Of a stretch of 64,000 bases of DNA, positions 9,189 to 27,738 are shown piece after piece. The stretch comes from Methylomonas koyamae. Its GTDB lineage: Bacteria > Pseudomonadota > Gammaproteobacteria > Methylococcales > Methylomonadaceae. Within the stretch, counting starts at the first letter, position 1; each line of letters opens with the position of its first letter. The translations under genes were made by a program, and so were the position numbers. The stretch spans positions 1-64,000 of the forward strand of contig NZ_LUUK01000155.1 in NCBI RefSeq assembly GCF_001644025.1, read 5' to 3'. The notes below the pieces were generated by a model. The model was not told the origin of the DNA, did not search any database, and saw only the letters and a list, made by a program, of their open reading frames with translations.

Positions 9189-11722
9189 CGTCCGCCCTCC
9201 ATATTCAGCGTCAATAAGCCGTGTTCCGGAAAACCTTTATCGTTATCCAGACGGGCGATTTCCAGCGGCGCCAGCGTCAACACGCCGGTGGCGATTGCAT
9301 CGTCGGCGGCTTCGAACAAGCGCCGCAATTCGCTGACTTCGACGCCGGCGACGCCGGCCACCTTTTGTGCCGCCGCGACGATGCGACTCAAATACACGCC
9401 GTCGCCGAAACTCAGATTGTCCGGATGAAAAAAGCCGCGCTGGCCATCGGCCAAAACGCGGTTGCTGAACATGGTTTGCAGGCTCGCTTTAATCTGGCTT
9501 TGCAAAAAGCCGGGCCGAACGCAGACTTTCAAGATCAAGGCCAGCGGCACTTGCAGCGCGGCAACCACTTCCAGGTCGTGACCGATGCGCCGGTAGCTCC
9601 GCAAATGCCGGTCGATGCGGCACAGCAAGCTTCGGCAGTCGGCACTGGCCGCGTAGGCATCGACCACCACCAACACCCTGTAGCCGCTGCCGGTCCAGCG
9701 CAGCGTTGCGGCGGCTTTTTGTACCTCGGCGGCGAAATCGCGCATTACAATTTGCGCGTAATCGTCGCAAGTGACGGCGCGTTGCAACACTTGCCGAAAC
9801 GCGTGCGGCGCCAATAAGCGCGCCTGAGCCACCGGCTCCGCCGCCACGCCGCCCTGGGCCGGCAAGGGATTGCGCACTGAAAGGGTCGCGCCGCTGGGAA
9901 AGCGATTACGAAATACGATGCGTGTGATGGTCTCGGCGCCGACCAGACCGGCCGGGCCGTTGCCCGTCCGGTAGCGGGCCGCGAAACGGGTACCGGGCTT
10001 GGGCATCCGGCCCTGTTGGCCGTCGCCGAAGCGCAGCCAGGCAACCGCATCGTCATCAATTTCGACAGTAAAGTGCCGGTCACCGGCGTTGCTGTTCAAC
10101 AAATCGGCTTGCGCAGACCATACCTCCGGCGTATCGCAAGCGCCGAGATCGGTTTCGGTCAATGCCAGCCATGGCAATGCCAGACGTACATCCTGATCCG
10201 CTAAACCGCTGGCCGCGATGACTAGCGGTTGTGCGCCGCACGGATCGGGCTGACGGCAGGCCGGCAGCGGCTGGACGTGGGTCAATTCGGGCTTGCTCAA
10301 ACGTGGCCGAAAACGCAGCGGCAACGCCGTCGGTTCGCGCACCCCGCAATCGTCGCAATCCGGCCAATGCCAACTGCCGGGCACCACTTCCAGCGTTTCG
10401 GTCACCGTTTCGCCGTGATCGACCAGCACCACGTTACCGCGCGCCACGCTGACGCCGGTCAGCGGCGAACAATCTTCGTCCTTGACCGCCGACAAACACA
10501 ACGCAAAAGGCAACGCATCGGCCCGGCTCCAGCGAATATCGACGATGAAGCGACCGGTCAACGGATCGACGCCCTCCTCGACCGCAATCAGCCGCACCGG
10601 ATGCCTATGTTTGGGATCGGCATCGGCGCGGTTGCCGGTGTGCGGCCCCAACACTTCCTCGAAAATCAACACGTCGCAGACTTGCAAACGCAATTGCCGG
10701 CTTTCGATACCGGGGTCCAGCAAGGTCGCCGAGGTTGCGCCCTTGAGCAGACAGCATTTAGCATCGCCCCAGGTATAAAAATCGATGGCATTATGCTCCG
10801 CGTACCAGTGCAGGGTTTGCTTGGCCGGCACCAGCAGGGGTTCGTAGACCAAATAGGGTTGCGGCAAGGTTTGCGGCAAATCCTCGGCCTTGAGCAAAGC
10901 CGTGTCGTCGCCGGAATCGAACGCGGTGATAAAAAACACATCGGCGCTTTCGACGGCCAAATCTTGCGAGACCTCCAGACACACCCAGGCCCTGGCGTTG
11001 CAACCCTCGTGCAAGCGGTAATCGACTAAGCGGGCGTGGCGTCTGACCGAGATCCGCCGCCGCGCGGTGTCCAGATACGCTTCGGTGGCGACCGCATCCT
11101 GATAGTAACTGAGATGGTCGCCGACGTAAGCCAGCAATTCGACCAGCGTCACGCCCAAATCCGGGACATGGCGTTCCCGCCAATCCGGCAGTACCAGCGC
11201 CAAGCGGTCGTAAATCAATTGCCGGAAGCTGGCGTAATCCTTGGCCAGATAATTGATTTCCGGCAATTCCGCCGCCGACGCCGCACAATCCTGCGCCGGC
11301 TTACAGTCGATGTCGCCGCCGCAGGCCACCTTGAAATTGAATTCCAGACTCGCGTAACGCGGATCGAAGCCGGGCATGCTGCGCTCGGTGGGCCGGCCTT
11401 GTTCGTCCAGCGCCACCGCGCACAAGCGATAATTGGAAAAATCGCCGTAACGGTCCAGGCCGACCAGCATGTAGTCGTCGCGCTCCGGGTCTTCGTCGCG
11501 AACAATCTCTACAGAGACCACCCGGATGCCGGTAATCCGCTCGCCACCGACGATACGCAGATTCGCGGCGTCGAGGTGATCGGGGGCCTTGCGCAGAAAA
11601 AACACCGTCAAGCTCAGTTGGTCGTCGCCGACTTCCAAGTAATCGAAGCCGTTCAAACTCTCGCTGGCCCGGACTAGCGCTCGGCGACTATCCTCGCGGC
11701 ACAGCAATGCCGAGGCGCTCAT
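9185..11722 (-). CDS. Putative baseplate assembly protein (gpJ-like, first copy)
   Basis: An 845-residue wedge protein of the eCIS baseplate. Typical blocks are NYLAKDYASFRQLIYDRLALVLPDW, DLGVTLVELLAYVGDHLSYYQDAVATEAYLDTARRRISVRRHARLVDYRLHEG (about residues 185-250), and later FGDGQQGRMPKPGTRFAARYRTGNGPAGLVGAETI. It shares the plan of the following 1113-residue protein, and both together correspond to the two large Afp11/Afp12-type baseplate components. Its start overlaps the gp25-like gene by 4 bp and its stop overlaps the next gene by 4 bp. It is cytoplasmic before assembly. Confidence 0.87.
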   Translation of the reverse strand: MSASALLCREDSRRALVRASESLNGFDYLEVGDDQLSLTVFFLRKAPDHLDAANLRIVGGERITGIRVVSVEIVRDEDPERDDYMLVGLDRYGDFSNYRLCAVALDEQGRPTERSMPGFDPRYASLEFNFKVACGGDIDCKPAQDCAASAAELPEINYLAKDYASFRQLIYDRLALVLPDWRERHVPDLGVTLVELLAYVGDHLSYYQDAVATEAYLDTARRRISVRRHARLVDYRLHEGCNARAWVCLEVSQDLAVESADVFFITAFDSGDDTALLKAEDLPQTLPQPYLVYEPLLVPAKQTLHWYAEHNAIDFYTWGDAKCCLLKGATSATLLDPGIESRQLRLQVCDVLIFEEVLGPHTGNRADADPKHRHPVRLIAVEEGVDPLTGRFIVDIRWSRADALPFALCLSAVKDEDCSPLTGVSVARGNVVLVDHGETVTETLEVVPGSWHWPDCDDCGVREPTALPLRFRPRLSKPELTHVQPLPACRQPDPCGAQPLVIAASGLADQDVRLALPWLALTETDLGACDTPEVWSAQADLLNSNAGDRHFTVEIDDDAVAWLRFGDGQQGRMPKPGTRFAARYRTGNGPAGLVGAETITRIVFRNRFPSGATLSVRNPLPAQGGVAAEPVAQARLLAPHAFRQVLQRAVTCDDYAQIVMRDFAAEVQKAAATLRWTGSGYRVLVVVDAYAASADCRSLLCRIDRHLRSYRRIGHDLEVVAALQVPLALILKVCVRPGFLQSQIKASLQTMFSNRVLADGQRGFFHPDNLSFGDGVYLSRIVAAAQKVAGVAGVEVSELRRLFEAADDAIATGVLTLAPLEIARLDNDKGFPEHGLLTLNMEGGR

Positions 11723-12081
11723 GTCGGACTCCTGAGGAATTCCGCGCTGCGAACCTCGCCGCTGCGCTTGACCCGGTATTGCACCTGCACCTGCAAGGTC
11801 GAGTCCTGGCTGGTCACTTCCAAGGCCAGTACATCCAGCACATCGCCCAGCCAGCGCTGTAAGCCGGCCTGAATCGTGAATTGTAGCGTCGCCGCCAATT
11901 CGGCGCTGTTCGGCGCGAAAATTAGTTGTAGCAAGCCGCTGCCGAAATCCGGTCGGTTGACGCGTTCGCCGTTGTTGGTGAACAGAAATTGTTCGATCAT
12001 GTCGCGGATATGCTCGTCGTAAGCGGTGACGGCGGTGCGTCCGCGCTGGTCGAAATGCAACGGAAAATCGACGGCTATCAT
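11719..12081 (-). CDS. GPW/gp25-family baseplate protein
   Basis: A 120-residue protein with the gp25/W fold pattern: AYDEHIRDMIEQFLFTNNGERVNRPDFGSGLLQLIF, where the NGER and RPDFGSGL segments are the conserved core of T4 gp25, Afp9 and TssE proteins. In contractile tails this protein binds the first sheath ring to the baseplate. It lies 7 bp after the PAAR-like gene and overlaps the first gpJ-like gene by 4 bp. The length is normal for the family. Confidence 0.9.
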   Translation of the reverse strand: MIAVDFPLHFDQRGRTAVTAYDEHIRDMIEQFLFTNNGERVNRPDFGSGLLQLIFAPNSAELAATLQFTIQAGLQRWLGDVLDVLALEVTSQDSTLQVQVQYRVKRSGEVRSAEFLRSPT

Positions 12082-12088
12082 GGCATCC

Positions 12089-12412: not shown

Positions 12413-12413
12413 C

Positions 12414-12971
12414 TCAAGTCACCACCAGCGCCAGTTTGTTGATCATCACCGCCGGCCCCAGCATTTCCAGGCTGGCGCCCTTGCCGTTACTGATGAAGAT
12501 ACCGGCGTCGTTGACCACAATGTAAGCGCCGGTGGTGCTGCGTAAAATCACCCCGCCGGTGGTCGGGATCGGCGGCATCACCGGCGGCGGCGGAGCCGGC
12601 GGCAGGTCGCTGACGATAATGCCTTGCTGCAGCAAGGACTGAATCACGATATTGGGATCGGCCGGGTTGCCGGCCAGCGCCGCCAGCGGAATATCGGTTT
12701 GCAAACCCCAGCGGCAGCCGACCCAGATCGGTTTGTCCAGATCGCCGTGCTCGAACTCTATCCATACCCCGGCGCCGATCGGCGGCACCATGTACACGCC
12801 CATTGGCGGCCCGGTCGGTCCGGCCAGCGGCACGCAGGGTTCGGCGAAGGTGGTCGGAATCAACGAATTGACGTCCGGCACCAGCGCCTGAATCCGGCCG
12901 CGCTGTTCCGGATCGACGTTGTTGATCACGGTGCCGCGATACTTGCCCCAATATTTGTTCTCTTCGTTCAT
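12414..12971 (-). CDS. gp5/VgrG OB-fold spike protein (baseplate assembly V-like)
   Basis: A 185-residue protein. Residues 8-90 (KYRGTVINNVDPEQRGRIQALVPDV ... PCVPLAGP ... PPIGAGVWIEFEHGDLDKPIWVGCRW) are the gp5 oligonucleotide/oligosaccharide-binding-fold domain used by tail spikes. A Pro-rich bridge (PPAPPPPVMPPIP) follows, then a short beta repeat region ending in KLALVVT. It corresponds to Afp8/Pvc8 together with the separate hub gene upstream, with which it overlaps by 4 bp. The split of hub and spike into two genes is seen in several eCIS lineages. Confidence 0.87.
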   Translation of the reverse strand: MNEENKYWGKYRGTVINNVDPEQRGRIQALVPDVNSLIPTTFAEPCVPLAGPTGPPMGVYMVPPIGAGVWIEFEHGDLDKPIWVGCRWGLQTDIPLAALAGNPADPNIVIQSLLQQGIIVSDLPPAPPPPVMPPIPTTGGVILRSTTGAYIVVNDAGIFISNGKGASLEMLGPAVMINKLALVVT

Positions 12972-14462: not shown

Positions 14463-15113
14463 CTAAATACCGCTGATGCCCAGCGCCGCGAACGCGCCGC
14501 CGGCAAATTTTTGCGCCAACTGCTCCTTGTTTTGCAGATAGCTGATAAACAGACTGCCGCCCTTGTGATCGAAGCCGATGTCGTTGACGCTCAACACCCG
14601 CAGGCCCAGACTGAGTTTGGCGCGGATCGGATTCAAGGCCGCGTCGAAGGCTTCCTCGGTGATGCTGAACTCGGTCAGCCGTACCGGCACGATGCGCTGC
14701 TTGCTCCAGATAAACAGCATCAACGCCGCTTCGGAGGGGGCGATTTCCAGGGTGCCGGCGTGGGCCAGACTATTGGCGGCCTGGAGCTGAGCACTGCTCG
14801 GATAGACGATCAACTCCAGCGCGGCCAATTGCGGATGCAAACCCACTTGAGTCGCCAGGCCGTCGGCGATTTCCAACTGCTCGGCGGCATCGATTTCTGC
14901 GTCCAGCTTGATGGTTTCCACCGGCGGACCTTTCAGGCGCAGCGCTTCGGAACGGTCGCCGCTATCGGCGCCGATACCTTGCACTTGCAAGGAGCGGGTG
15001 ATGGTGTCCGGGTTGTACTGCAAGGCGATGATGCGCCGCACCGCGCCGCTGCCGGGATCGATCAGCACCACGCCACCCTTGATCAGTTTCGGAGAACCTG
15101 GGAAACCGCTCAT
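14463..15113 (-). CDS. CIS tube initiator / Afp7-like baseplate protein
   Basis: A 216-residue protein. IALQYNPDTITRSLQVQGIG near residues 27-50 and LRVLSVNDIGFDHKGGSLFISYLQNKEQLAQKF near the C-terminus fit the contractile injection system tube N-domain family (Afp7/Pvc7). In characterised systems this protein links the spike hub to the first tube ring. Normally the LysM domain is fused; here it is the next gene. The ATG overlaps the stop of the 73-residue gene (ATGA at 15110-15113), supporting coupled translation. Confidence 0.83.
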   Translation of the reverse strand: MSGFPGSPKLIKGGVVLIDPGSGAVRRIIALQYNPDTITRSLQVQGIGADSGDRSEALRLKGPPVETIKLDAEIDAAEQLEIADGLATQVGLHPQLAALELIVYPSSAQLQAANSLAHAGTLEIAPSEAALMLFIWSKQRIVPVRLTEFSITEEAFDAALNPIRAKLSLGLRVLSVNDIGFDHKGGSLFISYLQNKEQLAQKFAGGAFAALGISGI

Positions 15114-15405: not shown

Positions 15406-18400
15406 TCATCGCGGAAAGTTGCTCTGGAGGAAAGCGAATACGTGCGGACGCAAGCGTTGCAAGCCATCCGGGTCAACCATGTATAAAGCGTAGGATTCGG
15501 CAAAGTGTTCCTGCCAACTGGTATCCGAATAGTGCGTGATTCCTGGGCCGCCATCCTGCTGTGCGGCTTGCCGGAAAGCCACGTTGTCCGCGCCTTCCAC
15601 AATCGTCAAGTCGTTGCTGCCGGGTTGCGCTTGCCATTGCGAACCCGACAAGGAGCGAGCCGCGTCGCGCGTTCGTTGAGCTGCGGTTATTTGCGCATGT
15701 ATTTGATTCCAGCGTGCTTGCATCGAGGCGGGAATTGAGTAGCGATTGGAACCCGGCTGAGTTTCGTAACGGCGAAAGGCGTTGCGTTGCGCGTTAACCG
15801 CTTGATTCACGGGATCGATGACTTGCGACAATATCCTTAAATCGAGTGCGTGCCCCAACTCGTGCAATACGTCTTGCCGCGCGACGTTCGCCAACCCTTG
15901 TCCGGGAACGCCGGTCCGAGTCAGCGACGCGGTAAAGGCACAGTCGAACAAAGTGATGACGCGGGTCCCGGATTGATGTTCGCCACACCATTCGGGATGG
16001 GTCTGGTGTACGGTGCCGCGATTGAAGGTATAACCGGCAACCAGATTTAAGGTGGTGTCTGGCACTTGCTCCAATGCCGCCAATACTTCCTGAAATTGCG
16101 GGTCGCTCCAACCTGCACCACGGCGAAAATTGTAGCGGTCGAAACGTTGTTGCGCTCTCTTGGCCTGATCCGGATGCAGGGTTTCCATGCCTATGCCGCC
16201 TAAATGTTCGACCAATATTTCACCGTTGGCCGCGCCGCCTTGTACTTGACGTCTGACATAGGTAAAGCGAAAGGCCGAATACCCGCCCCCGACGTTCTCC
16301 AAGTGCAAAGCTAGCGTCAACGTCGAATTCGGTTCGAGCGGCGGCGGACCGCTGGTCCAGCTGGCGGGATTTGTCAACGTGCCGGCGATATTTTCCAAGC
16401 CCCTACGCAACACTTGCATAACGCCGCTGGAGAAGCGCACGACTACGTTCGCCGGTAACGGGATCATCGTCGCCCGTGGCTGAAAATAGGCGTCCAGATT
16501 AGCCAAAGTGACTCTCAGCGTAATCACGCGCAGTTGTTGACGCTCCGCTTCCGGAAGCGCGTTAGTGAGTTCCGCGCCCGTGGGGTCGGCTCTGCCGCGC
16601 GGCCAAGCCACCTCGTCTATCGCGCCGACGAGCTGCTGGTACAAATCCTGTTCGGTTCTGCGTAGCAAGGAAGCGGCTTTCGTAATCAACGACGCGACGG
16701 CCGCCTGATAGGCTCCGACAAGAAGGCTTGCTAACGCGGCATCGTTATTCAGCATCTGCTGAATAATCCTCAGATTACTGGTATATGCCGTTCGCCAACC
16801 TTGTAAAATCGTTGCCAGCCACGTCTGATCGATTCGCGTCACATCTCGATAAAAATCCGCAGCCTCCCGCAAAAAGCGTATGGCACCCTCGACGAACTCG
16901 CGCTGTTCCGCCGGAGTAGCTGGCCGCGCCGCAGGTATCAATAAACCGCCGTATTTGATTTGGGCGTCCGACGGACCTACTTGATGTCCGTATTCGTCCT
17001 CACCGCTCGGAGGAAATCCGTTTTCGCGGCGGAATCGCTCTATCAGCGGTCTATGTATCGGATCATCATCACCCATGACCTTTTTATGCAACCCTCTCGA
17101 TTCACCGCGTTGCTGAACCACGTGAGCCAGTTCGTGAGCCAGCAAATGCCGACCTTCACGCGTCTCGGGCTGGAACTGGTTGTCGCCGAACACGACATCG
17201 TGACCGACCGTATAGGCTTTGGCTTGAACCTCGCGCGCCGATTGTTCGGCCGCGCCGCCGATATGGATGCGCACCCGAGAAAAATCCTGTCCGAAACGCG
17301 CCTCCATATCCTGCTGCAATGGAGCATCCAACGGCCTACCCGAACTCGCCAGCACCTGATCGACGCTGTCCGGCACCGCTTCCGCGGCGGCCGAACCGTT
17401 GCCGCTTACGCGTTGAATGCTGGGCGTGGCCGACTTGAGCGGCGGGTTTGACGAATTTGTTAGCACTTGTTCGGCGACGCGATCCGCTTCCGTTTCCAGG
17501 GGATCACCGCTGGCGCCGATACGAAGTTTTTTCTGCAAGGCCGGACGTTCGTCCTGCTCTTCTTCGCTGAGAATTCTCAATTTGATTTGATCGCCAAACA
17601 ACGAAGGCCTTTCCTTACCCGGCGACCAATTGGGCTGCGTCAGCTGTAAACCGTTTTTCGGTTGCGGTGCCGCCAGCCACGGATATTTTTTTAGAGTCTC
17701 TGAAATATCCGGACCGCCACGATACTTCAGCGCGGCCTGTCTGAGTGCCTCATCTTCCGCCCTTTGCCTTAAGTCTTCCGGGGAACCGGGCGTAAAACGC
17801 ATATTGGCGCGGAACTTGGCCTGATCCGCCGCCATTTTGGCGGTCTCCGCCCGATACTTGTCGGCCGCGCTGAGCGGTGTTTTCCCAGCGTCGTTTTTGG
17901 CCGCTTGCTCGCGGTAGCTAAAGGTAATCATCGCATCGGTCGGCTTATCCACCGGGCCTTTGTAGGTCAGCTTCACACTCAAGCCGGGCGTGATAATGTC
18001 CAACGGGATTTCGGGTATCTGAACCGGCAAGGCCTTGTGGTTCGCCGCCAGTGTCGCCACGGTTATTACGGCGGCTTCGCCGGTGTAAATTCTGCCCGGC
18101 CAAGTCGCGAGAATATCCTTGCCAAACTGGGTAGCGCCTTTCACCAAGGCATCTTGTTTCAGCTTCTCGACCAAGGTTTTGCCGAGCGGGGTTTGTAAAA
18201 ACGCTTCGCCGAGTTTTTCCAGGCCTTCCCGATATTTTTCCGCGTCGGTTTTTTCCTTGGGCGCTTCCTGGCGGCGAATGGTCTCGGCACCGGCGGCGGA
18301 TAACGTCGGTAACGCGCTATGGCTAGCCAATACCTGATCGGCAACCCGATCGGCCTCGCGTTCCATCGGATCGTTGCTGGCGCCAATCGCTAATTGACGT

Positions 18401-18564
18401 TGTATCGGCTTATTCTTGCGCGCGCAGGCCGCGCATTCTCCACCAGCGGGCGAGTGATTGCCGCAAGCGCAACGACGCTGCAATAGGCAGACGGCGGGTC
18501 GAGTTTGCGTGGCTAACGCCACTTTATTGCCGGACGCGGCCGGCGTTTTGGTTAGGCTAGACAT
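15406..18564 (-). CDS. DUF4157 eCIS payload candidate with C-terminal metallopeptidase-like domain
   Basis: A 1052-residue protein. A Cys cluster (C32, C34, C44, C47) precedes the first eCIS-core motif IGASNDPMEREADRVADQVL (60-79). A nearly identical motif recurs at 349-368, followed by the complete DUF4157 domain ending HELAHVVQQ (477-485). Residues 550-800 are largely helical with no family I can name. The C-terminal part has HELGH at 901-905 and a downstream HFAESYALY with Glu1023, a gluzincin-like zinc site. DUF4157 is known to mark proteins loaded into or associated with eCIS particles; that this one is a proteolytic effector is inference. The start overlaps the previous gene by 8 bp. 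The duplicated core motif suggests fusion of two payload genes or internal duplication. Confidence 0.82.
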   Translation of the reverse strand: MSSLTKTPAASGNKVALATQTRPAVCLLQRRCACGNHSPAGGECAACARKNKPIQRQLAIGASNDPMEREADRVADQVLASHSALPTLSAAGAETIRRQEAPKEKTDAEKYREGLEKLGEAFLQTPLGKTLVEKLKQDALVKGATQFGKDILATWPGRIYTGEAAVITVATLAANHKALPVQIPEIPLDIITPGLSVKLTYKGPVDKPTDAMITFSYREQAAKNDAGKTPLSAADKYRAETAKMAADQAKFRANMRFTPGSPEDLRQRAEDEALRQAALKYRGGPDISETLKKYPWLAAPQPKNGLQLTQPNWSPGKERPSLFGDQIKLRILSEEEQDERPALQKKLRIGASGDPLETEADRVAEQVLTNSSNPPLKSATPSIQRVSGNGSAAAEAVPDSVDQVLASSGRPLDAPLQQDMEARFGQDFSRVRIHIGGAAEQSAREVQAKAYTVGHDVVFGDNQFQPETREGRHLLAHELAHVVQQRGESRGLHKKVMGDDDPIHRPLIERFRRENGFPPSGEDEYGHQVGPSDAQIKYGGLLIPAARPATPAEQREFVEGAIRFLREAADFYRDVTRIDQTWLATILQGWRTAYTSNLRIIQQMLNNDAALASLLVGAYQAAVASLITKAASLLRRTEQDLYQQLVGAIDEVAWPRGRADPTGAELTNALPEAERQQLRVITLRVTLANLDAYFQPRATMIPLPANVVVRFSSGVMQVLRRGLENIAGTLTNPASWTSGPPPLEPNSTLTLALHLENVGGGYSAFRFTYVRRQVQGGAANGEILVEHLGGIGMETLHPDQAKRAQQRFDRYNFRRGAGWSDPQFQEVLAALEQVPDTTLNLVAGYTFNRGTVHQTHPEWCGEHQSGTRVITLFDCAFTASLTRTGVPGQGLANVARQDVLHELGHALDLRILSQVIDPVNQAVNAQRNAFRRYETQPGSNRYSIPASMQARWNQIHAQITAAQRTRDAARSLSGSQWQAQPGSNDLTIVEGADNVAFRQAAQQDGGPGITHYSDTSWQEHFAESYALYMVDPDGLQRLRPHVFAFLQSNFPR

Positions 18565-20512
18565 CGCCTGCCCTCATTTCGTCGATCACCGGTTGGTAGT
18601 CGCTGGTGACCGGGGTGATGCCGCCGGCGGTAGTTTGGCTGTATAGCGAGTAGTAGTAATCGGCGGCAATATCGGCCTGTTGCTCGCGATTGAATTCGCG
18701 GAAGTGTTTGCCGAGCATATTCGGCGACGGGTTGGTGGCCGGTCGCCACAACGCGTCCGGACCTTTGTAATCGTAGCCGGCAGTGGCCTGGGCATGGATC
18801 GCTTCGCCCAGATATTGCGAACCCACGCGTTCGTATTGGAAGACATGGGTCAGCTCGTGCGTCAGCCAGTGCATATCGTTGCTGCCCGGACTGGCGCTGA
18901 TCTTTTGATTGAAATTGATGGTGTGGAAAGTCGTCACGCCCATCCCGCCGCCGCCCTTGAACAAGGCGCCGATGGCGGAAATCAGCGAATATTCGTCTAT
19001 GCGTACTTGCCAGTACGCGATGTTGTCCTGAAAAGTTTTTTGCGCTTCGCTTTTTTCGGTCGAATTCAGCGTGCGGGTGTTGAATTTGATGATTTGAAAC
19101 AGCAAGTCCCAGACCTCGCCGATGCCGGCGATGTCCACCAATTTGCCGATCAAGCGGCCGATCCAGGCCGCACCGGACAGGATGCCGTCCAGAAACCAAT
19201 TGCCAAGGCCTTTGAAATCCAGATGCCAGGCCAGTTTCAAGCCGTCCCACAACCAACCGGCCGCGCCGGCGATGCCGCTGCCCAAATGCTTGATCAAGCG
19301 CCAGATACGGCTCGGGAAATTGACGACTTGCCGCCAGGCCAAGGCCGCGCCGGCTTTCAACACATTCCACCCCCAACCGGCGAAGGCTTTGATGCCGCCC
19401 CAAACCTTGCCCGCCACCCACTTGGTACCGTCCCACACCTTGCCGGCGGCTTTTTTGACGCCTCGCCACGCCGCGCTGGCGCCTTTTTTGATCCCACCCC
19501 AAACCGCGCCGGCGCCCTTTTTGATACCGCCCCAGACCGCTCTCGCGCCTTTTTTAATGCCGTTCCACAATTTGCCGAAAAAACCGCCCTGCACCCGCGG
19601 TTCGCTGGTTTCGCGCACTCGAATCGGCGCCAGCGGCATACGCGCCAAACCGCTTTGCTGCTGCAAGACGTGAGTCAGTTCGTGCGCCAACAACCAGCGC
19701 CCGCCTGCGCTAGCGGGTTGATACTGACCGGCCCCGAACACTACATCGCGACCGACGGTAAACGCACGGGCCCTGACCGAATCGGCCAATTTGCCGGCGT
19801 CGACGCCGGTGTGAACCCGGACCTGACTAAGGTCGCGACCCAGGCGCGGCTCGAAAAAACGTCTGACCGGGCTTGCCAACGGTTGACCGCCGCCGCGTAA
19901 GGCCTGGATACGCGATTCCTGACGCGGCGACACGCTGGGCGTCTGGCCGGCTTGCGGACTGGTCCGCATTGGCTCCGTTTCACCGGCTTGATCCGCGTCG
20001 TCAGACTCGGCTTGCTCGCCGCCGCTGGGCTGCTGATCGCCCTCCAAATCGTCGCTTTCCAGCAATAGCAACGCCACTTGGGCCGGATCGCCCTCCTCGG
20101 CCTGCTTATCCACACTTTCCGGCTTGGCGGTTTCGGCTTGCGGCGCCATTTCAGATTCGGCGGCGTGCGCGTCCATGTTATCGCTGGCCGGTTGTGGAGC
20201 CCGTCTCAAGGTATTGCCATCCTGACCGACCGACGTCAGCGCTCGATCACGACCGCCGCCAGTCACCTTATCGGCAACCGCATCGGCCTCGCGCTCAAAC
20301 ACATCGCCGGGCTGGCCTAACACCAGCTTGGCCTGCCAGCTGCCCGGCCGGGCCGGGCTGAGCGGAATCGCGCCAAATTCATGTGCGCCGCGTTCGCTAT
20401 TGGCCGGCAAACTGGCCGGCTGCTCGGAAAATTTGCCGCGCTCGGGTTTAATGGATCCGACCAATGGCGTTGCGGAAAGCGGCGGACGTTCTACCGACCG
20501 GGATTTATTCAT
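18557..20512 (-). CDS. DUF4157 eCIS payload candidate with 11-residue Trp repeats
   Basis: A 651-residue protein. DPGD/FEREADAVADKV (69-83) and DLSQVRVHTG...AFTVGRDVVFGAGQYQP...LLAHELTHVLQQ (228-285) form the DUF4157 eCIS core; the acidic stretch 117-205 is probably disordered. Residues 316-404 hold nine Trp at exact 11-residue spacing in units like VWGGIKKGAGA, then a hydrophobic Gly/Trp-rich segment to about 470. The C-terminal domain carries a second HELTH (552-556) with AIHAQATAGYDY and FNREQQADIAADYY, a pattern of toxin-like metallopeptidase domains. The start overlaps the 85-residue gene by 8 bp. It may be injected cargo, a membrane-active factor or a structural ruler; sequence alone does not decide. 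Confidence 0.82.
   Translation of the reverse strand: MNKSRSVERPPLSATPLVGSIKPERGKFSEQPASLPANSERGAHEFGAIPLSPARPGSWQAKLVLGQPGDVFEREADAVADKVTGGGRDRALTSVGQDGNTLRRAPQPASDNMDAHAAESEMAPQAETAKPESVDKQAEEGDPAQVALLLLESDDLEGDQQPSGGEQAESDDADQAGETEPMRTSPQAGQTPSVSPRQESRIQALRGGGQPLASPVRRFFEPRLGRDLSQVRVHTGVDAGKLADSVRARAFTVGRDVVFGAGQYQPASAGGRWLLAHELTHVLQQQSGLARMPLAPIRVRETSEPRVQGGFFGKLWNGIKKGARAVWGGIKKGAGAVWGGIKKGASAAWRGVKKAAGKVWDGTKWVAGKVWGGIKAFAGWGWNVLKAGAALAWRQVVNFPSRIWRLIKHLGSGIAGAAGWLWDGLKLAWHLDFKGLGNWFLDGILSGAAWIGRLIGKLVDIAGIGEVWDLLFQIIKFNTRTLNSTEKSEAQKTFQDNIAYWQVRIDEYSLISAIGALFKGGGGMGVTTFHTINFNQKISASPGSNDMHWLTHELTHVFQYERVGSQYLGEAIHAQATAGYDYKGPDALWRPATNPSPNMLGKHFREFNREQQADIAADYYYSLYSQTTAGGITPVTSDYQPVIDEMRAGDV
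19301..19567 (-). repeat. 33-bp-period coding repeat (11-residue Trp/Gly/Lys units)
   Basis: Within the 651-residue DUF4157 protein the codons for Trp 316, 327, 338, 349, 360, 371, 382, 393 and 404 recur every 33 bases. The first three units are nearly identical (WGGIKKGAxAV); later units diverge. The period of 11 residues fits an amphipathic hendecad helix with a Trp stripe and Lys-rich face. Confidence 0.85.
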
Positions 20513-20762
20513 GGCCTAGGCCTCGGTAAACCGTTTGCGCGATCTGCTCGCCCAAGCGGGTCGGCTGCTGTCCAACCAATTGCAAGCCGGACAACTGCAA
20601 GCGCGGCACCGCCACGCCGTTACTCCATTGGCCGGCCAAACCGCCCTCGCTCAGCAAGCGGGTCAATTCCGTCGTCAAACCGGCTTGCAGTTCGCCGCGA
20701 CTATCTCCGGCCAAATCGACACCGTCCAGCACCAGCCGTTCGATGTGCAATTGAATGTTCAC
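20505..20762 (-). CDS. Small conserved-type eCIS protein
   Basis: An 85-residue protein starting MNIQLHIERLVLDGVDLAGDSRGELQAGLTTELTRLL with a later GVAVPRLQLSGLQL. Small proteins with this IHIERLVLDG opening recur directly behind the AAA+ ATPase gene in eCIS loci, as I recall them; their role is not established. It overlaps both neighbours (4 bp with the ATPase, 8 bp with the DUF4157 gene), so its product is probably made in step with the payload. A role as payload chaperone or adaptor is a guess from position. Confidence 0.65.
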   Translation of the reverse strand: MNIQLHIERLVLDGVDLAGDSRGELQAGLTTELTRLLSEGGLAGQWSNGVAVPRLQLSGLQLVGQQPTRLGEQIAQTVYRGLGHE

Positions 20763-22813
20763 GGCGCGCTCCCGACCAGGCCCAACAGCCGAAACTCGGC
20801 TTCGTTGACCGGTTTATCCAGCTTGCGGAATTCGGCGCGTAGCGCTTCGAAAATCAACGCCATCGTCACCTGCCGGGCATCGCTGGCGGCTGCCAGAAAT
20901 GCCGCGTTCAAGGCTACGTTGTGGATGCTGCCGCCGGTCAGATTGAAGCGGGCCAGATGCTGATAATCCAGCTCGGCCAACGGCGTTTGCGGCGGAAATA
21001 CCTTGCGCCACATGTCGGCGCGCTCGGCGGCGCCGGGAAACGGAAAATTGACGATAAAACGCAAACGCCGCATGAAGGCCTGATCCAACGCACTTTTCAT
21101 GTTGGTCGCCAGAATCGCCAGACCGCGATAGGCTTCCATGCGTTGCAGCAAGTAATTGATTTCGATGTTGGCGTAGCGGTCGTGGCTGTCCTTGACTTCG
21201 CTGCGCTTGCCGAACAGCGCGTCGGCTTCGTCGAAAAACAAAATCGCGCCGCCGTCTTCGGCGGCATCGAACAAGCGCCGCAGGTTTTTTTCGGTTTCAC
21301 CGATGTATTTGCTGACCACCGCCGACAAGTCGGTCCGGTACAGATTCAGTTGCAAGGCGTTGGCGATCACTTCCGCCGCCATGGTTTTGCCGGTGCCGCT
21401 TTCGCCGGCGAACAGCACGCTCAGCCCCAGACCGCGATTCATTTTATCGACGAAGCCCCAGTCGTTATAAACCAGGCCGCGCCGCTCGATCTGGCCGGCG
21501 ATATGCTTGAGCAATACCTGCGGCTCCTTGGGCAACACGATGTCGGGCCAAGTGGCCTTGACGTCGATACGCCGCGCCAATTGATCCAGCTTGGGGCTGG
21601 TTTTACGCAAGCAGGCTTGCCAGAGCCGGTCGCGGCGTTCGCCAGCCGCCGGCTCGCCGGCCACCGAATCGGCAATTTCGCGGATCGCGGGCAATTCCAG
21701 GCTGAACTGGCCGGCCAGTTGCGCGGCCAACACAGTGGCATCGTCGCCGAGCGCCTCCCGCCAGACGTTTTGTTGTTCTTCGGCATCGGGCTTGGCGATT
21801 TCGACGATCAAGCCGTCGAATTCCGGTTGCGGGTCGCGGACACCCAAAATCAATACGCCGTTGCAGGCGCCAAGCAAACGTCTCAGTAACGTGGCATGGG
21901 TGTGCTCGTCGGCATGGCCAGCGTCCAGATACAAAGCCACCGGCAGCAACAAGCGCTCGCGCTCCCACAACCGCAACAAGTTTTCCAGGTCGGCGGTCTG
22001 AGTCGGCAGACTCTCTAAACTCGTCGCCATACCGCCGAGTCCCAGTTCCGCCAAGGCCAGCCTGACCACTTCCGCTTTTACACGGGCCGACGGGCCGGCC
22101 AATTGCACCAACACGTGCTGACTAAGCCCGCTGGCCCGGCTTTGCAAATAAGCGGCAATCTCCCCGACGACCCGCCGTTGCGACGGCGCCAGCGCGGCGG
22201 CATCGCTGGCACCGAGCAGCGGGGCCATGAACGGCAATAAACGGTCGTCGATATTGTGTCTGGGTTCGACCAGAAAATTGACGATGCGCTCGTCGGCCCG
22301 CAACGCGCTGGTGGTCAGCGCTTCGGCGCCGGGCTGGTTGATCTCCAGCAGGCGCCAGTAGCGCAAGGGCCGGTCGGCGGACAAGGCTTGCCAGTTGGGT
22401 TGCTCGAACAAACGCAGCGCCAACGCGAAGGTCGGATAAGGTTTATAAGCATTGTCTTGGGCTTTGGCGCACAAGGCGGCGGTTTTGCCGTCCAGCTCGA
22501 TGGCCGCGCACAACAGCAAAATTTGTTGCTCGAAGCGATCCAGGCCAAGCTGGCGGCTCAGGATAATCAAAGCCGGCGGCGGATCGGCGCTTTCGGCGGC
22601 CGCCAGTTTTTTACCGAGCGCGCGGATCGCGGTTTCGGCGTCGTCGGAGCCTTGCTCCGTTTCAGGCTCCCGGCATTTGAACCAGCCACGTTTGGCCGGT
22701 GGCGCGGCATGAGTCAGTTCCGCGATTTGCCGCTCCAGCAAGCGGTGCAGCCAGGCGATCGCATCGCCGAGATAATCGTTATTGGCTTGCAGCCAGCGTT
22801 GATGCTCGTTCAT
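20759..22813 (-). CDS. AAA+ ATPase of eCIS (Afp15/Pvc15-like)
   Basis: A 684-residue protein. The C-terminal AAA+ module has Walker A GESGTGKT (470-477), Walker B ILFFDEAD (524-531), sensor-like LATN and the Arg-containing FMRRLRFIVNFPFP. The N-terminal 430 residues have winged-helix-like and degenerate AAA features (RQLGLDRFEQQILLLCAAIELD). Afp15/Pvc15 ATPases are needed for assembly of particles or loading of cargo. Both ends overlap neighbours by 4 bp. The ATPase is followed immediately by the payload block, consistent with a loading role. Confidence 0.9.
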   Translation of the reverse strand: MNEHQRWLQANNDYLGDAIAWLHRLLERQIAELTHAAPPAKRGWFKCREPETEQGSDDAETAIRALGKKLAAAESADPPPALIILSRQLGLDRFEQQILLLCAAIELDGKTAALCAKAQDNAYKPYPTFALALRLFEQPNWQALSADRPLRYWRLLEINQPGAEALTTSALRADERIVNFLVEPRHNIDDRLLPFMAPLLGASDAAALAPSQRRVVGEIAAYLQSRASGLSQHVLVQLAGPSARVKAEVVRLALAELGLGGMATSLESLPTQTADLENLLRLWERERLLLPVALYLDAGHADEHTHATLLRRLLGACNGVLILGVRDPQPEFDGLIVEIAKPDAEEQQNVWREALGDDATVLAAQLAGQFSLELPAIREIADSVAGEPAAGERRDRLWQACLRKTSPKLDQLARRIDVKATWPDIVLPKEPQVLLKHIAGQIERRGLVYNDWGFVDKMNRGLGLSVLFAGESGTGKTMAAEVIANALQLNLYRTDLSAVVSKYIGETEKNLRRLFDAAEDGGAILFFDEADALFGKRSEVKDSHDRYANIEINYLLQRMEAYRGLAILATNMKSALDQAFMRRLRFIVNFPFPGAAERADMWRKVFPPQTPLAELDYQHLARFNLTGGSIHNVALNAAFLAAASDARQVTMALIFEALRAEFRKLDKPVNEAEFRLLGLVGSAP

Positions 22814-24081
22814 ACGATGGTCACCCGTTGGCTGTCGGCGAAGGCATAGCGCGGCGGATGATCCAAAAACGCGAACGGCAAACTGTCGACACCGTCGACG
22901 CGGATATACACCGGTTGCAAACTGAGCGGCGCGGCGTTTTCGATGACGAACACCAGCGGATCGCTGGGATTGATGCGCGCTTGCGCGGCGACTTCGCGAT
23001 CGCCCAACAGCAGCAGCGGCGCTTGCTCGGTTAATACTTGCGGCGTCGCGGCCATCGTCAGCGTGGCGTCGCCGGCCGCGCGGGCCACCGGATTGGCCGG
23101 CAAGATGCTGTCGACGCGGATCGCCAGCGGCAGACTCAAGCGGTTGGTGGTGCGTTCCGTGCCGTCGCGGCTGACGATGGCGGCGACTTCGTAAAGGCCT
23201 GCCGCCCAGTCGGTTTGCGCCGCCGCATCGTCGGGCAAGGTAAAGCGTAGACTGGTGGCATCGCGGTCCGCTTCCGGGATCGCCACGTCGCGGCTGCCCA
23301 GACGCGGATGCTGAAAGCGCAGCGTTACGCTGTCGCCTTGCAAGTCCTGCCCGCCGAAGGTCAAAACCAGGCCAGGCCAGGCATTAGGCAAGGACGGCAG
23401 CGGCACATCGCGGTTGTCGGCGAAGCCAATCCGGATTGTTTCCAGGCGGGGAAACCGGCCCAGCAGCGTCTCGACACCACGGTCGTCCTGGCCACGTTGC
23501 AACACCGGCGGCGCCGGATTTACCGCGTCGTCCGATTCGATCAGCACGACGCTGGCGCGGTAGGCAATAGACAAGGCGTAGGGCGTTTGGAAGAACACCG
23601 ACCATAACTTGGACAATTCGTCGAGGTTCAACGGCAGCGGCATCAATCTGACCAATTCCGGCGCCTGGTCCAGGTTGGAGTCGTTCAGCGGGGCATGACT
23701 GAGCGCGGCATTGTGGACGGCTTGGCGGGTCAAGATCGGATGCGCATGCAGGTCGCGGGCCACCGCGCCCAGCATGCGCTGCGCTTCGAAGGCGGTTTCG
23801 TCGCCGTAAAACGCCAATAAATAATGTAAATCCAGGGCGATTTGCGGGCGCTGGCTAATCCGTCCGCTAGGATCGCGGGTCGGTAGATCGGCGTTACGCA
23901 AAGCCGGATTCGGCGTGACCTGATACAAACACAGTTGCACCCAGCGCAAGGCATTGGCCGGCGGCGCGGTTTGCGGCCTGCCAAGCACCACTTCGGCGCC
24001 GCTGACGGCCTGTTGCGCGGCATTTTGAATCAGCGTCGCCAACGCAGCCGTTACCGTGGCGACAGCCAGTGAATTGCTCAT
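22810..24081 (-). CDS. DUF4255/Pvc16-family tail terminator protein
   Basis: A 423-residue protein. The N-terminal about 190 residues (SNSLAVATVTAALATLIQNAA ... NALRWVQLCLYQVTPNPALRNADLPTRDPSGR ... ALDLHYLLAFYGDETAFEAQRMLGAVARDLHAHP) are a clear Pvc16/DUF4255 domain, the cap that terminates tube and sheath in eCIS. The remaining half has repeating beta-rich Ig-like segments (RLGSRDVAIPEADRDATSLRFTLPDD, LPANPVARAAGDATLTMAATPQVL), an extension seen in larger members. It overlaps both neighbouring genes by 4 bp. Confidence 0.88.
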   Translation of the reverse strand: MSNSLAVATVTAALATLIQNAAQQAVSGAEVVLGRPQTAPPANALRWVQLCLYQVTPNPALRNADLPTRDPSGRISQRPQIALDLHYLLAFYGDETAFEAQRMLGAVARDLHAHPILTRQAVHNAALSHAPLNDSNLDQAPELVRLMPLPLNLDELSKLWSVFFQTPYALSIAYRASVVLIESDDAVNPAPPVLQRGQDDRGVETLLGRFPRLETIRIGFADNRDVPLPSLPNAWPGLVLTFGGQDLQGDSVTLRFQHPRLGSRDVAIPEADRDATSLRFTLPDDAAAQTDWAAGLYEVAAIVSRDGTERTTNRLSLPLAIRVDSILPANPVARAAGDATLTMAATPQVLTEQAPLLLLGDREVAAQARINPSDPLVFVIENAAPLSLQPVYIRVDGVDSLPFAFLDHPPRYAFADSQRVTIV

Positions 24082-24875
24082 CGCCGGCCTCCGTCGCGCT
24101 GCTTCAGATAATCGTCCAGACTCATCGTCGCCTGAGCCGGGCGCGGCTTGGCGGCGGATTTTTCGCTGGTTTGGGTAGCGCGGATTTCGATGCGGCCTAT
24201 CGTAACCTGTATCGTCGGCATTGGCGTGGGCTCCGGCCGGACATCGGCGGGTTGCCGCGCAGCGGCGTCCTTGAAACCGGTCAATGCCGGGACGATGGGT
24301 TTAAGCTCGGCCACGAGCGGATTCATCGGCTTAAGCGGTTCGGATTCTGGTTGGTGTTGCCGGCTGGCGGCCGCGATGACCGGTGTTGCATCCGGATCGA
24401 GCACACGCTCGCGCTCGGTCAGCATCGTGACGCGCTCCTCGATTCGAGTCATCTCCCGCTCGACCGCCGGCGCGGCCGCGTTGGTGCCGCTATTGGTCGG
24501 TGTCCGAGGCTCGACCGGTATTTCGCGGCGGCTGGACAAGGGCGGGATTGCCGGCGGAACGGGCGTCAACAACGGTTGCGCCGCTGGCTGTTCGGCAGGC
24601 GTTTGCGCCTGCCAGGAGAAGGGTGGATCGAGATTTGGCGCCCCTTGTCCGACTGCGTCATCCCGCCCGACTGCGGTGTTTGGGATCGTGGGTATAGGTT
24701 CGCGGATAGCCGGCCCCAGGGTCGGGCTGGGCGGCAACGGTTCGGTCGACGGATCGAACGGGTCCGCCGCGAACGGTTCGCTTGAATCGGGCTCGAAACG
24801 CCCCGGCAAACGCGGCGGCAAGGCTTCTATTCGATGCAGCGTCAGCGCCGCGAGTTGTCCCAGAAAGCCGTTCAT
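24078..24875 (-). CDS. Pro-rich disordered eCIS protein with conserved C-terminal tail
   Basis: A 265-residue protein. The ATG at 24875 overlaps the upstream stop as ATGA, so I prefer it to the longer frame from 25067. Residues 20-200 are dominated by Pro, Ala, Glu and Thr and are probably disordered, with a short helical patch (EREMTRIEERVTMLTERERVL). The end, IQVTIGRIEIRA...MSLDDYLKQRDGGRR, is what recurs in eCIS proteins at this position, between the baseplate gp26-like and cap genes. No function is known to me; linker, tape-like spacer or cap adaptor are possibilities. Confidence 0.7.
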   Translation of the reverse strand: MNGFLGQLAALTLHRIEALPPRLPGRFEPDSSEPFAADPFDPSTEPLPPSPTLGPAIREPIPTIPNTAVGRDDAVGQGAPNLDPPFSWQAQTPAEQPAAQPLLTPVPPAIPPLSSRREIPVEPRTPTNSGTNAAAPAVEREMTRIEERVTMLTERERVLDPDATPVIAAASRQHQPESEPLKPMNPLVAELKPIVPALTGFKDAAARQPADVRPEPTPMPTIQVTIGRIEIRATQTSEKSAAKPRPAQATMSLDDYLKQRDGGRR

Positions 24876-25600
24876 TGCCGCACCCGTTCTAGGTAGCATT
24901 GCCTGCGCAACGGACTCATCGCCAGGATGTCCGCTTCGCTCCAGCCGTAAGCGCGGGCCAGCAAATGCACGTCGTTGAATAAGCGTTGCGCCCAGGCCTG
25001 AATTTCCCGCCACAAATAACCGGCAATATCGAAAGCCGCCAGCCACGCATGCCGGCAACTCGGGCAATTTAAATCCAGGCTGATGTCGGCTTGCGGATCG
25101 GCGGCTGCCAGTAAAGCTTCAGCCGAAGCAATCAAGACTTCCGGGACGGTTTCCGGGATAACCGGCTCGCCACTGGCTAACACTTCAACGCAGCAGCGGG
25201 CGAACAAAGTCCGCCGTGCGGCATCGACGTCAGCCAATGTTTGAATATGCAATAAATCGCGGCTATCCGGTAAACGCAATTGGATGCGGAAACCGTCTTG
25301 CACCAGTACCAACGGCGCCTCGGCCGGCGGCGGCAATTGCAGATCGGCGACATTCAAATTCAGTTCCAGCGTCTCCGCGCAGTTAGGGCAGGCCGCCAAG
25401 CTGGCCATTCGCGCGCCGAACAAGCGTTCGCGTAGCGCCAACAGCCGGCCGTTGCGTTGCCCGAGCGGCAGGCTTCTCAACGTGGTTTCGCTGAGTTCGG
25501 TATCCAACATGACCAGCAATGTCAGTGCGCGTTCGGTATCGGTCTGCAGCAGACAGCGTTCCCAGGCGGCCAGCAAGGTCGAGGCGATGCCCGCGCTCAT
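24872..25600 (-). CDS. T4 baseplate (gp26-like) Zn-ribbon-containing protein
   Basis: A 242-residue protein. The C-terminal FNDVHLLARAYGWSEADILAMSPLRRQCYLERV matches proteins annotated as T4-type baseplate/tail assembly components. Two CxxC pairs, C71/C74 and C179/C182, could form one zinc ribbon. LPLGQRNGRLLALRERLFG near residue 44-62 is also characteristic. It sits 2 bp after the tube gene and overlaps the next gene by 4 bp. It may act as a tail chaperone or as a minor baseplate subunit; the family name is tentative. Confidence 0.7.
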   Translation of the reverse strand: MSAGIASTLLAAWERCLLQTDTERALTLLVMLDTELSETTLRSLPLGQRNGRLLALRERLFGARMASLAACPNCAETLELNLNVADLQLPPPAEAPLVLVQDGFRIQLRLPDSRDLLHIQTLADVDAARRTLFARCCVEVLASGEPVIPETVPEVLIASAEALLAAADPQADISLDLNCPSCRHAWLAAFDIAGYLWREIQAWAQRLFNDVHLLARAYGWSEADILAMSPLRRQCYLERVRQ

Positions 25601-26139: not shown

Positions 26140-27738
26140 TTAGACTTCGATTTGTCCAGCCATTTGCTGGAGTTTGATGACCACAAATTCGGCGGGTTTT
26201 AGCGGCGCGAAGCCGACCACGATATTGACGATGCCGGAATTGATGTCGGTTTGCGTCGTGGTTTCCCGGTCGCACTTGACGAAGTAGGCCTCCCTGGGCG
26301 TACTGCCCTGAAAAGCGCCCTGGCGAAACAGGTTGTGCATGAAGGCGCCGACGTTCAAACGGATTTGTGCCCACAGCGGTTCGTCGTTCGGCTCGAACAC
26401 CACCCACTGCGTGCCGCGATACAGGCTTTCCTCGATGAACAACGCGGTGCGGCGCACCGGCAGGTATTTCCATTCGTCGGCCAACTGGTCGGCACCGCGC
26501 AAGGTACGCGCGCCCCAGACCACCCGGCCGTTGACCGGAAACGCCCTCAAACAATTGATGCCCAACGGGTTGAGCATGCCGTTTTCGGCGTCATTCAAAT
26601 TTACTTGCAAACCTTGAATCCCGCTCAGCGAGGCATCCAGCCCGGCCGGCGCCTTCCAAACGCCGCGGGCGGTATCGGTGCGCGCCATGATGCCGGCAAT
26701 CATGCCACTGGGCGCGAACACGTCGAGCTGGCCTTCGCGCAAGGGATCGCTTTGAATCACACGCGGAAAGTACAGCGCTGCGTTACGAGCTTCGACACCG
26801 GACAGACCCAAGCCGCTCAATCCGTCGCGAGCCGTTGCAGCGGCGGTATCCTTATTCGCGCCCCACGCCGCCGGCGGATCGACGATCAGCACGGCGCGCC
26901 GGTCGGCGCAGTATTTCATCCCCTTTTGATAGACTTCCTTCAAGGTATCGCCCTCGCGGGTGTCGGGCGGTATGCACAGCAAATTGAACAAATCGGCCTT
27001 ATCCAGCGCGTAAAGGCCGGTTTTGTTGTTTTTGTCGCCGACCACGTCGGCTTCGGCGGTCAACAACGCACTATCGCCGCCGCCGGTAAATTTTTTAAAG
27101 CTGGCCGGCGTGGCCGCCGGATCGGCCGGATCTTCGGCGGCGGTCGAGTCGGTGGGCCGGCCGGCCACCAGATCGGCGCTGCCGTCGGCTTTCTTCTGCA
27201 CGCGGATCAAATTGGATTCCGCGGCTAACACTCGATCCAGGCGGCGGGCGCCAGCGCCGACAGTGACAGCCAAATTCAGGAAGCGTTCGACGCGGCCCTT
27301 GCCGGGTTCTTCGTACACCGTCATATTGAATAAATCGGCCTGCGCAATGCCGTAACGGCCGGCGACTTCGGCGGTAATGCCCTTGGCGTCTATCGTGTAA
27401 GTGAGCTTGTCGCCGCGCAAACCAACGCTGGCGGCTTCCAGTTTCAGATCGGCGTTTTTCGAGGCCGTGGCGTTTTTCGCCAGCCTGACGATCAAGGCCT
27501 GTTGGCCGCCGTTCAGATAAAAGTCGCGTACCGCATAGGACAGCGGAAAATCCGGCGACAAATCGCCAAACACCCGGATGAAATCGCCGAAGCTGTTGAC
27601 GGTGATCGGCTCATCGGTCGGTCCGCGCGAGGCCCGGCCAAGAAACGCGGTAATCGAGGTGGCGACGCCGGTAATCGTGCGAACGCCGCTGGGGACCTCT
27701 TCGATGTAAACGCCGGGATAAGAAAGTGCTACAGGCAT
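26140..27738 (-). CDS. Contractile sheath protein (Afp2-4 type), first gene of eCIS operon
   Basis: A 532-residue sheath subunit. The start SYPGVYIEEVPSGVRTITGVATSITAFLGRA and the end FVKCDRETTTQTDINSGIVNIVVGFAPLKPAEFVVIKLQQMAG are classic for tail sheath proteins, as is GRVVWGARTL and YLPVRRTALFIEESLYRGTQWVVFEPND in the C-terminal domain. An AGGAG sequence precedes the ATG by 6 bases. It is the only sheath gene; Afp and PVC have three paralogues. As first gene it probably sets the start of the 25-kb operon. Confidence 0.95.
   Translation of the reverse strand: MPVALSYPGVYIEEVPSGVRTITGVATSITAFLGRASRGPTDEPITVNSFGDFIRVFGDLSPDFPLSYAVRDFYLNGGQQALIVRLAKNATASKNADLKLEAASVGLRGDKLTYTIDAKGITAEVAGRYGIAQADLFNMTVYEEPGKGRVERFLNLAVTVGAGARRLDRVLAAESNLIRVQKKADGSADLVAGRPTDSTAAEDPADPAATPASFKKFTGGGDSALLTAEADVVGDKNNKTGLYALDKADLFNLLCIPPDTREGDTLKEVYQKGMKYCADRRAVLIVDPPAAWGANKDTAAATARDGLSGLGLSGVEARNAALYFPRVIQSDPLREGQLDVFAPSGMIAGIMARTDTARGVWKAPAGLDASLSGIQGLQVNLNDAENGMLNPLGINCLRAFPVNGRVVWGARTLRGADQLADEWKYLPVRRTALFIEESLYRGTQWVVFEPNDEPLWAQIRLNVGAFMHNLFRQGAFQGSTPREAYFVKCDRETTTQTDINSGIVNIVVGFAPLKPAEFVVIKLQQMAGQIEV

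Follow-up and report, generated by a model that had tools for sequence, protein, structure and literature searches.

A candidate eCIS cargo protein of Methylomonas koyamae combining an 11-residue tryptophan repeat with a VgrG2b-like metallopeptidase domain

We analyzed a 64,000-nucleotide stretch of the Methylomonas koyamae genome (positions 1 to 64,000 of contig NZ_LUUK01000155.1, assembly GCF_001644025.1), referred to below as the window, and focused on a gene that lies within the cluster of an extracellular contractile injection system (eCIS) and encodes a protein of 651 amino acids (aa). We call it the cargo gene, in line with the function proposed below. It is read from the minus strand; frame 1 of the plus strand across 18557-20512 contains stops and offers no open frame. 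The gene and its parts are as follows.

18557..20512, minus strand: whole cargo gene, 651 aa (open reading frame [ORF] reading, domain searches, and AlphaFold2 [AF2])
19649..19882, minus strand: eCIS_core domain (DUF4157), residues 211-288, with HELTH at 277-281 (Pfam PF13699, E 1.2e-36)
19301..19567, minus strand: nine Trp at 11-residue spacing, residues 316-404 (spacing count, with PHROG and tblastn matches)
19076..19585, minus strand: predicted helical segment, residues 310-479, low confidence (AF2 and hydropathy)
18560..19102, minus strand: predicted zinc-metallopeptidase domain resembling the VgrG2b C-terminal domain (VgrG2bC-ter), residues 471-651, with the HExxH domain at about 471-640 (profile match to PDB 6h56)

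The eCIS_core domain scored 125.2 bits, against a Pfam gathering score of 22, and most of it was modeled with a predicted local distance difference test (pLDDT) value of 93 to 96. An original prediction, made from the letters of the window alone, had taken the protein for one of eCIS cargo type, and this domain match, together with the location of the gene inside an eCIS cluster (see below), bears it out. On the N-terminal side, residues 1-190 had mostly pLDDT values below 50, with one helix at 71-84, so that the N-terminus appears mostly disordered. On the C-terminal side, AF2 placed successive helices at 310-357, 365-396, 401-430, 437-462, and 465-479, with block-mean pLDDT values of ca. 42 to 67. 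Foldseek with the whole-protein model gave no match at E up to 0.001.

The tryptophans at 316, 327, 338, 349, 360, 371, 382, 393, and 404 follow each other at exactly 11 residues, as the original prediction had it, and the first repeat units read W-x-G-I-K-K-G-A-x-A-V. Further Trp residues of the segment are found within the run (365 and 380) and beyond it (420, 422, 429, 439, 450, and 468). Three regions were shuffled 20,000 times each without a run of nine arising, the longest runs being four (whole protein) and five (residues 306-470 and 315-405); when any period from 2 to 30 was allowed, the longest was six, in 4 of 5,000 shuffles of residues 306-470. At the DNA level, Tandem Repeats Finder reported a 33-bp array of 3.4 copies with 79% matches. 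Neighboring units share 36 identical non-Trp residues, just 17 of them with the same codon, so that the repeat seems to be maintained as protein sequence and not merely to be a recent duplication of DNA.

The hydrophobic moment of residues 306-405 was maximal at 98 degrees per residue, which corresponds to a hendecad helix (three turns per 11 residues). Measured from Trp, the aliphatic side of such a helix would lie at -89 to -106 degrees and the Lys/Arg side at +74 to +76 degrees, Gly being found across from Trp. A hendecad amphipathic helix with a Trp face set against a Lys face had been expected; the periodicity agrees with the first part, while the second has to be revised, since Trp falls between the aliphatic and the Lys/Arg sides. 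The boundary between such sides is a usual place of interfacial Trp. Insertion into the membrane as a clearly transmembrane helix, another of the roles suggested, was rejected, given that the highest 19-residue Kyte-Doolittle mean of the segment is 1.33 and the usual cut-off for transmembrane helices is near 1.6. On the interface scale, 17 of the 30 scanning windows listed were favorable, only from about residue 356 onward, and on the octanol scale two of the 30 were negative (-0.5 and -1.0). Lining the inner tube and acting at a membrane are both possible roles for a segment of the tape-measure type, to which the following searches point.

With the whole protein as query, the PHROG collection of phage families returned mostly tape-measure families, aligned across residues 310-439. 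Residues 306-450, searched by themselves at E up to 1, matched 19 families, of which 13 (best E 6e-8) bear the name tail length tape measure protein. None of nine control sequences (four shuffles preserving composition, three shuffles that left the Trp positions unchanged, and two with the hendecad columns permuted) matched a tape measure, and a single one hit a family of unknown function at 0.066. The match therefore arises from the pattern around the tryptophans and not from composition or the Trp period alone. In tblastn searches at E up to 0.01, residues 298-450 found 362 of 50,697 phage records; among the 30 matches listed, many of which are near-identical phages or one phage twice, 26 were annotated as tape measure, two as minor tail protein, and two as hypothetical. 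Plasmids gave a similar picture (22 of 72,556 records matched, with 14 of the 22 rows annotated as tape measure), and a PDB sequence search at E up to 1 had a single match, across residues 311-407, to a tape measure protein (6v8i, E 0.025).

Four phage proteins were compared with the segment unit by unit, three annotated as tape measure (Ray17, Diva, and vipetofem) and one as minor tail protein (Javan240). W-N-G-I-K was the commonest start of the 11-mer in all four, and A at +7 and V at +10 were each the commonest residue in two. Phage tape measures with aromatic 11-mers share with the M. koyamae protein the Trp at every 11th residue and the W-N-G-I-K start. However, the four phage proteins are 878 to 1268 aa long and contain more repeats, while the M. 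koyamae protein has nine in a row, in units with fewer Ser/Thr and acidic residues, and adds the eCIS_core and peptidase domains. The tape measure of phage TP901-1 also contains Trp/Phe repeats of 11 or 18 residues, and deletions in it result in a shorter tail (PMC5099701).

For the C-terminal domain, a profile built with three relatives matched the VgrG2b effector domain (PDB 6h56) at E 1.4e-18, and adding a fourth relative (five sequences in total) gave E 7.5e-18. A control profile of five eCIS_core domains found no match to 6h56 at E up to 1, so that the match is specific to the C-terminal domain and goes beyond a general HExxH. H552, E553, H556, and E610, the latter part of an EQQ motif, are invariant in the five sequences, and a zinc site is predicted. 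In the alignment with 6h56, the Glu of EQQ lies 44 residues past the last His of HExxH, equal to the spacing between H939 and E983, a zinc ligand, of VgrG2b (PMC6899460). Pfam gave only a sub-threshold eCIS_core match (0.0016) for this domain. As the profile matches and both HExxH and the distal Glu are present, the sequence fits a member of the VgrG2bC-ter metallopeptidase family, with predicted protease activity; no effector-immunity pair is claimed. A second metallopeptidase domain behind the eCIS core had been anticipated, and the profile searches now give it a family.

VgrG2bC-ter is described as a periplasmic toxin whose toxicity requires HExxH and against which an immunity protein protects (PMC6899460). 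The relatives of VgrG2b are usually followed by an immunity gene. The likeness to this domain of the Pseudomonas aeruginosa type VI secretion system lies in the family assigned by profile and in the HExxH with its later Glu (PMC6899460, 6h56). The arrangement is different, since VgrG2b has the domain fused to a VgrG spike, with the immunity gene downstream, whereas in M. koyamae it stands behind eCIS_core and the hendecad helix, with no adjacent immunity ORF.

The gene is surrounded by the parts of a contractile particle. Along the minus strand, the genes for sheath, tube, a T4-baseplate-type protein, a Pro-rich protein, a Pvc16_N protein, an AAA ATPase, and an 85-aa ORF lead to the cargo gene, and a second eCIS_core gene follows it, with CIS_tube-like, spike, gp25-like, and baseplate genes further on.

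26140..27738, minus strand: sheath (PF04984, E 2.2e-11), the sole Phage_sheath_1 match in the genome
25603..26127, minus strand: tail tube (PF06841, E 6.3e-46)
24872..25600, minus strand: T4_baseplate-type protein (PF12322, E 5.5e-10)
24078..25067, minus strand: Pro-rich protein with no confident family
22810..24081, minus strand: Pvc16_N protein (PF14065, E 2.8e-45)
20759..22813, minus strand: AAA ATPase (PF00004, E 3.9e-26), which we take to be of Afp15/Pvc15 type
20505..20762, minus strand: 85-aa ORF with a GTG start, overlapping the ATPase gene and the cargo gene, with no PHROG match
15406..18564, minus strand: second eCIS_core protein, 1052 aa, with a C-terminal HELGH motif, its start overlapping the end of the cargo gene by 8 bases
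14463..15113, minus strand: CIS_tube-like protein (PF19266, E 0.00033, below the gathering score)
12414..12971, minus strand: spike OB-domain protein (PF04717, E 2.3e-18)
12081-12414: possible PAAR gene
11719..12081, minus strand: gp25-like baseplate wedge (PF04965, E 2.6e-16)
9185..11722, minus strand: baseplate wedge-type protein (phrog_219, E 6.6e-19)
5847..9188, minus strand: baseplate J-type assembly protein (TIGR02243, E 3.2e-72; PF04865)

The two eCIS_core matches of the genome are both at this cluster. The C-terminus of the second eCIS_core protein gave only sub-threshold Pfam matches (Peptidase_M90, 0.026; ATLF, 0.074) and no PDB match at E up to 0.1. The cargo gene was the only one of the 19 cluster genes scanned against PHROGs to match a tape-measure family, in a scan that left out ORFs under about 70 aa and the possible PAAR gene. 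No tail fiber turned up among the cluster genes, in which no search aimed at tail fibers was made. Elsewhere in the window, at 44858-47659, lies a class I adenylate cyclase gene, which points to a gammaproteobacterium.

The closest published parallel to this layout is Tme, from a contractile injection system (CIS) of Streptomyces davawensis. It, too, is a single protein, encoded in a CIS cluster, that unites DUF4157 with a tape-measure-like region and an enzyme at the C-terminus, and it co-purified with baseplate proteins (PMC11126660). The original prediction knew of no described effector with the layout seen here; with Tme published, the general kind was already known. Tme differs in its size of about 2,247 aa, its predicted transmembrane helices, and its EndA-type nuclease (PMC11126660), where the protein studied here has 651 aa, a helix of Trp 11-mers, and a metallopeptidase domain. 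The M. koyamae protein has the three-part layout of Tme and no predicted transmembrane helices, for which reason we regard it as working like Tme and not as a full Tme homologue. Neither is it encoded by the largest ORF of the cluster, as would be expected of a Tme-like effector (651 aa, versus 1113 and 1052 aa). The words "tryptophan" and "11-residue" are absent from the main text of the Tme paper (PMC11126660).

The AlgoCIS particle offers a second parallel, with two DUF4157 cargo proteins in one cluster, Cgo1 and Cgo2, which have disordered N-termini and differing C-termini (a predicted metalloprotease in Cgo1) and fill the tube lumen (PMC8894135). The main text of that paper does not use the term "tape measure" (PMC8894135), whereas the M. 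koyamae protein has a segment of that type. In the phage tail-like particle of Streptomyces lividans, the tape-measure-like effector works with a DUF4157 protein (Sle1/Sle2), the two being separate proteins (PMC13277306) where M. koyamae has one. DUF4157 itself may act as a chaperone or aid loading, according to Danov et al. (PMC11297309). No publication joining contractile injection with a hendecad was found in the literature searched, and within those searches the exact layout is unpublished.

To see how far this layout extends, we looked for relatives. No full-length one was found in 101 relatives and 398 genomes of the phylum, in which the matches covered the eCIS_core region without a Trp run, except at three loci: L027 among the 101 relatives, which has the C-terminal part only, and L059 and L060 among the phylum genomes, where the repeat alone is found in small non-eCIS proteins. 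The repeat had been expected to recur in close homologues. No full-length homologue was found, and the eCIS_core proteins of the same genus are without the repeat in the portions examined, so this objection to the prediction holds in part. With the C-terminal part as query, a search of the class (369 genomes) found one relative besides the genome itself. In a cyanobacterial sample there were matches in 23 of 244 genomes, with many rows lacking a locus. Viral contigs gave no match to the whole protein and one to the C-terminal alignment (L114).

Among 91 distinct eCIS_core ORFs, many of them truncated by the ends of their loci, 75 are without any two Trp spaced by 11 residues, 13 have one such pair, two have two, and one has nine. 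The latter is the M. koyamae cargo protein; the search suggested earlier for other eCIS DUF4157 proteins with an 11-residue Trp run produced none beyond it among these ORFs. Tape-measure matches are a minority feature of the domain as well: the most frequent tape-measure PHROG family was matched by 5 of the 70 eCIS_core proteins scanned (the 91 less 14 of the same genus and 7 short ones), the cargo protein included, and the eCIS_core protein of L082 matched a tape-measure family at 7.6e-10. The VgrG2bC-ter-like domain was found in 41 of the 398 phylum genomes, M. koyamae included, and in 1 of the 244 cyanobacterial genomes. For 31 of the 49 match rows there were loci, which were examined, and only one of these 31 ORFs, the cargo protein, has a separate eCIS_core domain; at L119 and L142 weak eCIS_core matches overlap the VgrG2bC-ter-like domain itself. 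The combination of eCIS_core, Trp hendecad, and VgrG2b-like domain was not met elsewhere in the loci searched.

At the level of sequence, five features are supported: the eCIS_core domain, the 11-residue period of Trp, the similarity of the segment to repeats of tape measures, the profile hit on VgrG2bC-ter, and a predicted zinc site with its residues in place. We propose as the probable explanation that the protein is an eCIS cargo effector made up of a loading part, a tape-measure-type Trp hendecad helix, and a metallopeptidase of the VgrG2b family. By analogy with Tme, Cgo1/2, and other DUF4157 effectors, the disordered N-terminus and eCIS_core would direct the protein to the particle for loading. 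From the geometry of the helix and what is known of tape measures, the hendecad would lie extended in the tube lumen of the loaded particle; after contraction its aliphatic side and boundary tryptophans, mainly those of the second half, would attach to the target membrane at the interface and keep the C-terminal domain in that place. By its relation to VgrG2b, the peptidase likely acts in the periplasm of a Gram-negative target. In a more specific version, which we put forward with considerable doubt, a helix derived from a tape measure has been turned into a delivery module that packs in the tube, docks on the outer face of the target inner membrane, and places a periplasmic protease toxin of the type VI kind; it may also have a part in determining how long the tube becomes, in a particle that has no separate gene for a tape measure.

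Several results weigh against the proposal of a cargo effector of this composition. The helix was predicted with low confidence, as its block means indicate, and the 10 listed scanning windows starting at 296-350, which hold the most regular Lys-rich units, were unfavorable on the interface scale. The single C-terminal sequence alone had no match in the PDB at E up to 0.1, AF2 of the C-terminal domain with one relative reached a pLDDT of 35, and the whole-protein model had no C-terminal fold. No small ORF comes after the cargo gene, which the next gene overlaps. The second eCIS_core protein has neither a tape-measure match in PHROGs nor a Trp pair at 11 residues. Growth inhibition of E. coli by Cgo1 was independent of its metalloprotease motifs (PMC8894135), a caution that protease activity need not explain any toxicity of the cargo protein. 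Proteins outside eCIS also match tape-measure families, among them the small, exported-looking proteins of L059 (1.3e-7) and L060 (0.0011), which have Trp hendecads, and the helical protein of L047 (4.7e-18). Lastly, a unit score, tape measure minus other, averaged -2.4 across the 11 units of the M. koyamae segment.

Without the two out-of-register units (439 and 450), the score was about +0.6, and three of the first five units lean to tape measures and two to others. The measure is a weak one, drawn from 94 units of the four phage proteins, the minor tail protein of Javan240 among them, and from 27 other units that are in part out of register, with leave-one-out values of +3.8 to +14.1 for the phage proteins and -3.4 to -4.4 for the others. 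Since the L047 protein matches without any Trp period, the PHROG tape-measure models evidently attract periodic helices. We thus rejected PHROG matches alone as proof of tape-measure descent, for L047, L059, and L060 match too and the unit score does not assign the repeat. Descent of the Trp segment from a tape measure is plausible by context and not proven by sequence. The alternative is a generic, low-complexity amphipathic helix that came by convergence to resemble LEA-like proteins or the small exported ones with Trp hendecads, and that serves as linker or membrane anchor only, with no tape-measure history. It would account for the Trp hendecads in the small proteins L059 and L060, in L103, and in the Planctomycetota protein L042 (the first three match tape-measure families and the last does not), and the unit scores are ambiguous between tape-measure and other repeats. 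However, we hold this account to be unlikely, considering that scrambled and column-permuted controls drew no tape measure, that the gene sits inside a machine derived from a phage tail, and that regions resembling tape measures occur in further DUF4157 proteins (PMC11126660, and L082 and the 5 of 70 above).

Other alternatives leave the repeat as it is and change the role of the protein. That it also serves as the length ruler of the particle, in place of the separate tape-measure gene not found in the cluster, would suit its being the sole tape-measure match among the 19 genes scanned and the effect of deletions in TP901-1 (PMC5099701). We judge this very improbable: only about 170 residues are predicted helical, equal to 25.5 nm fully extended; in AlgoCIS, particles still form when both DUF4157 cargo proteins are missing, their tubes then being mostly empty (PMC8894135); and a tape measure could be among the small ORFs or the possible PAAR gene left out of the scan, be encoded elsewhere, or, if eCIS tape measures do not match phage families, have been missed. 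A further alternative, compatible with the preceding ones, accepts the cargo protein as described and has its C-terminal domain act on eukaryotic or own-cell proteins, with the missing immunity gene reflecting such a target or release by lysis. No immunity-like ORF is directly adjacent, VgrG2b reportedly acts against eukaryotic cells as well as bacteria (PMC6899460), and Geller et al. note the lack of a putative immunity gene for many of the eCIS toxins tested (PMC8213781). Yet for VgrG2bC-ter and Tpe1, the relatives that have been studied, the periplasm of bacteria is the place of action (PMC6899460), and we consider a target other than bacterial competitors rather unlikely.

A cargo effector with a tape-measure-type helix would agree with a proposal made for Tme and Sle1, in which parts of phage tape measures are used again in CIS cargo, and would extend this reuse from the Streptomyces examples to M. 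koyamae. It would also connect the cargo of eCIS with a family of toxins known from work on type VI secretion, and raises the question of whether a domain of the VgrG2b type functions when a tube delivers it instead of a spike. Being short, the segment of regular 11-residue units lends itself to separate tests of tube packing and of membrane binding.

Trp repeats and VgrG2bC-ter-like domains were also seen in other settings. The L059 (1426-1848) and L060 (1480-1926) proteins are small, with hydrophobic N-termini and a Trp spacing of 11, in short loci where no eCIS context was seen. The Planctomycetota protein of L042 (3590-6058) has WDGTKWVA-type repeat units near its C-terminus, with no tape-measure match, in a genome without an eCIS_core match. 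The 947-aa protein of L047 (1151-3991), from another genome without an eCIS_core match, joins long helices that match tape measures to a VgrG2bC-ter-like domain. Many VgrG2bC-ter-like ORFs stand alone, at about 155 to 250 aa, and one such ORF of 161 aa (L114, 3995-4477) is located on a 75-kb IMG/VR contig. The domain also occurs in RTX-type proteins, at L110 (7833-11648, identified by Pfam; the same place as L145) and L118 (1483-3414, identified by eye).

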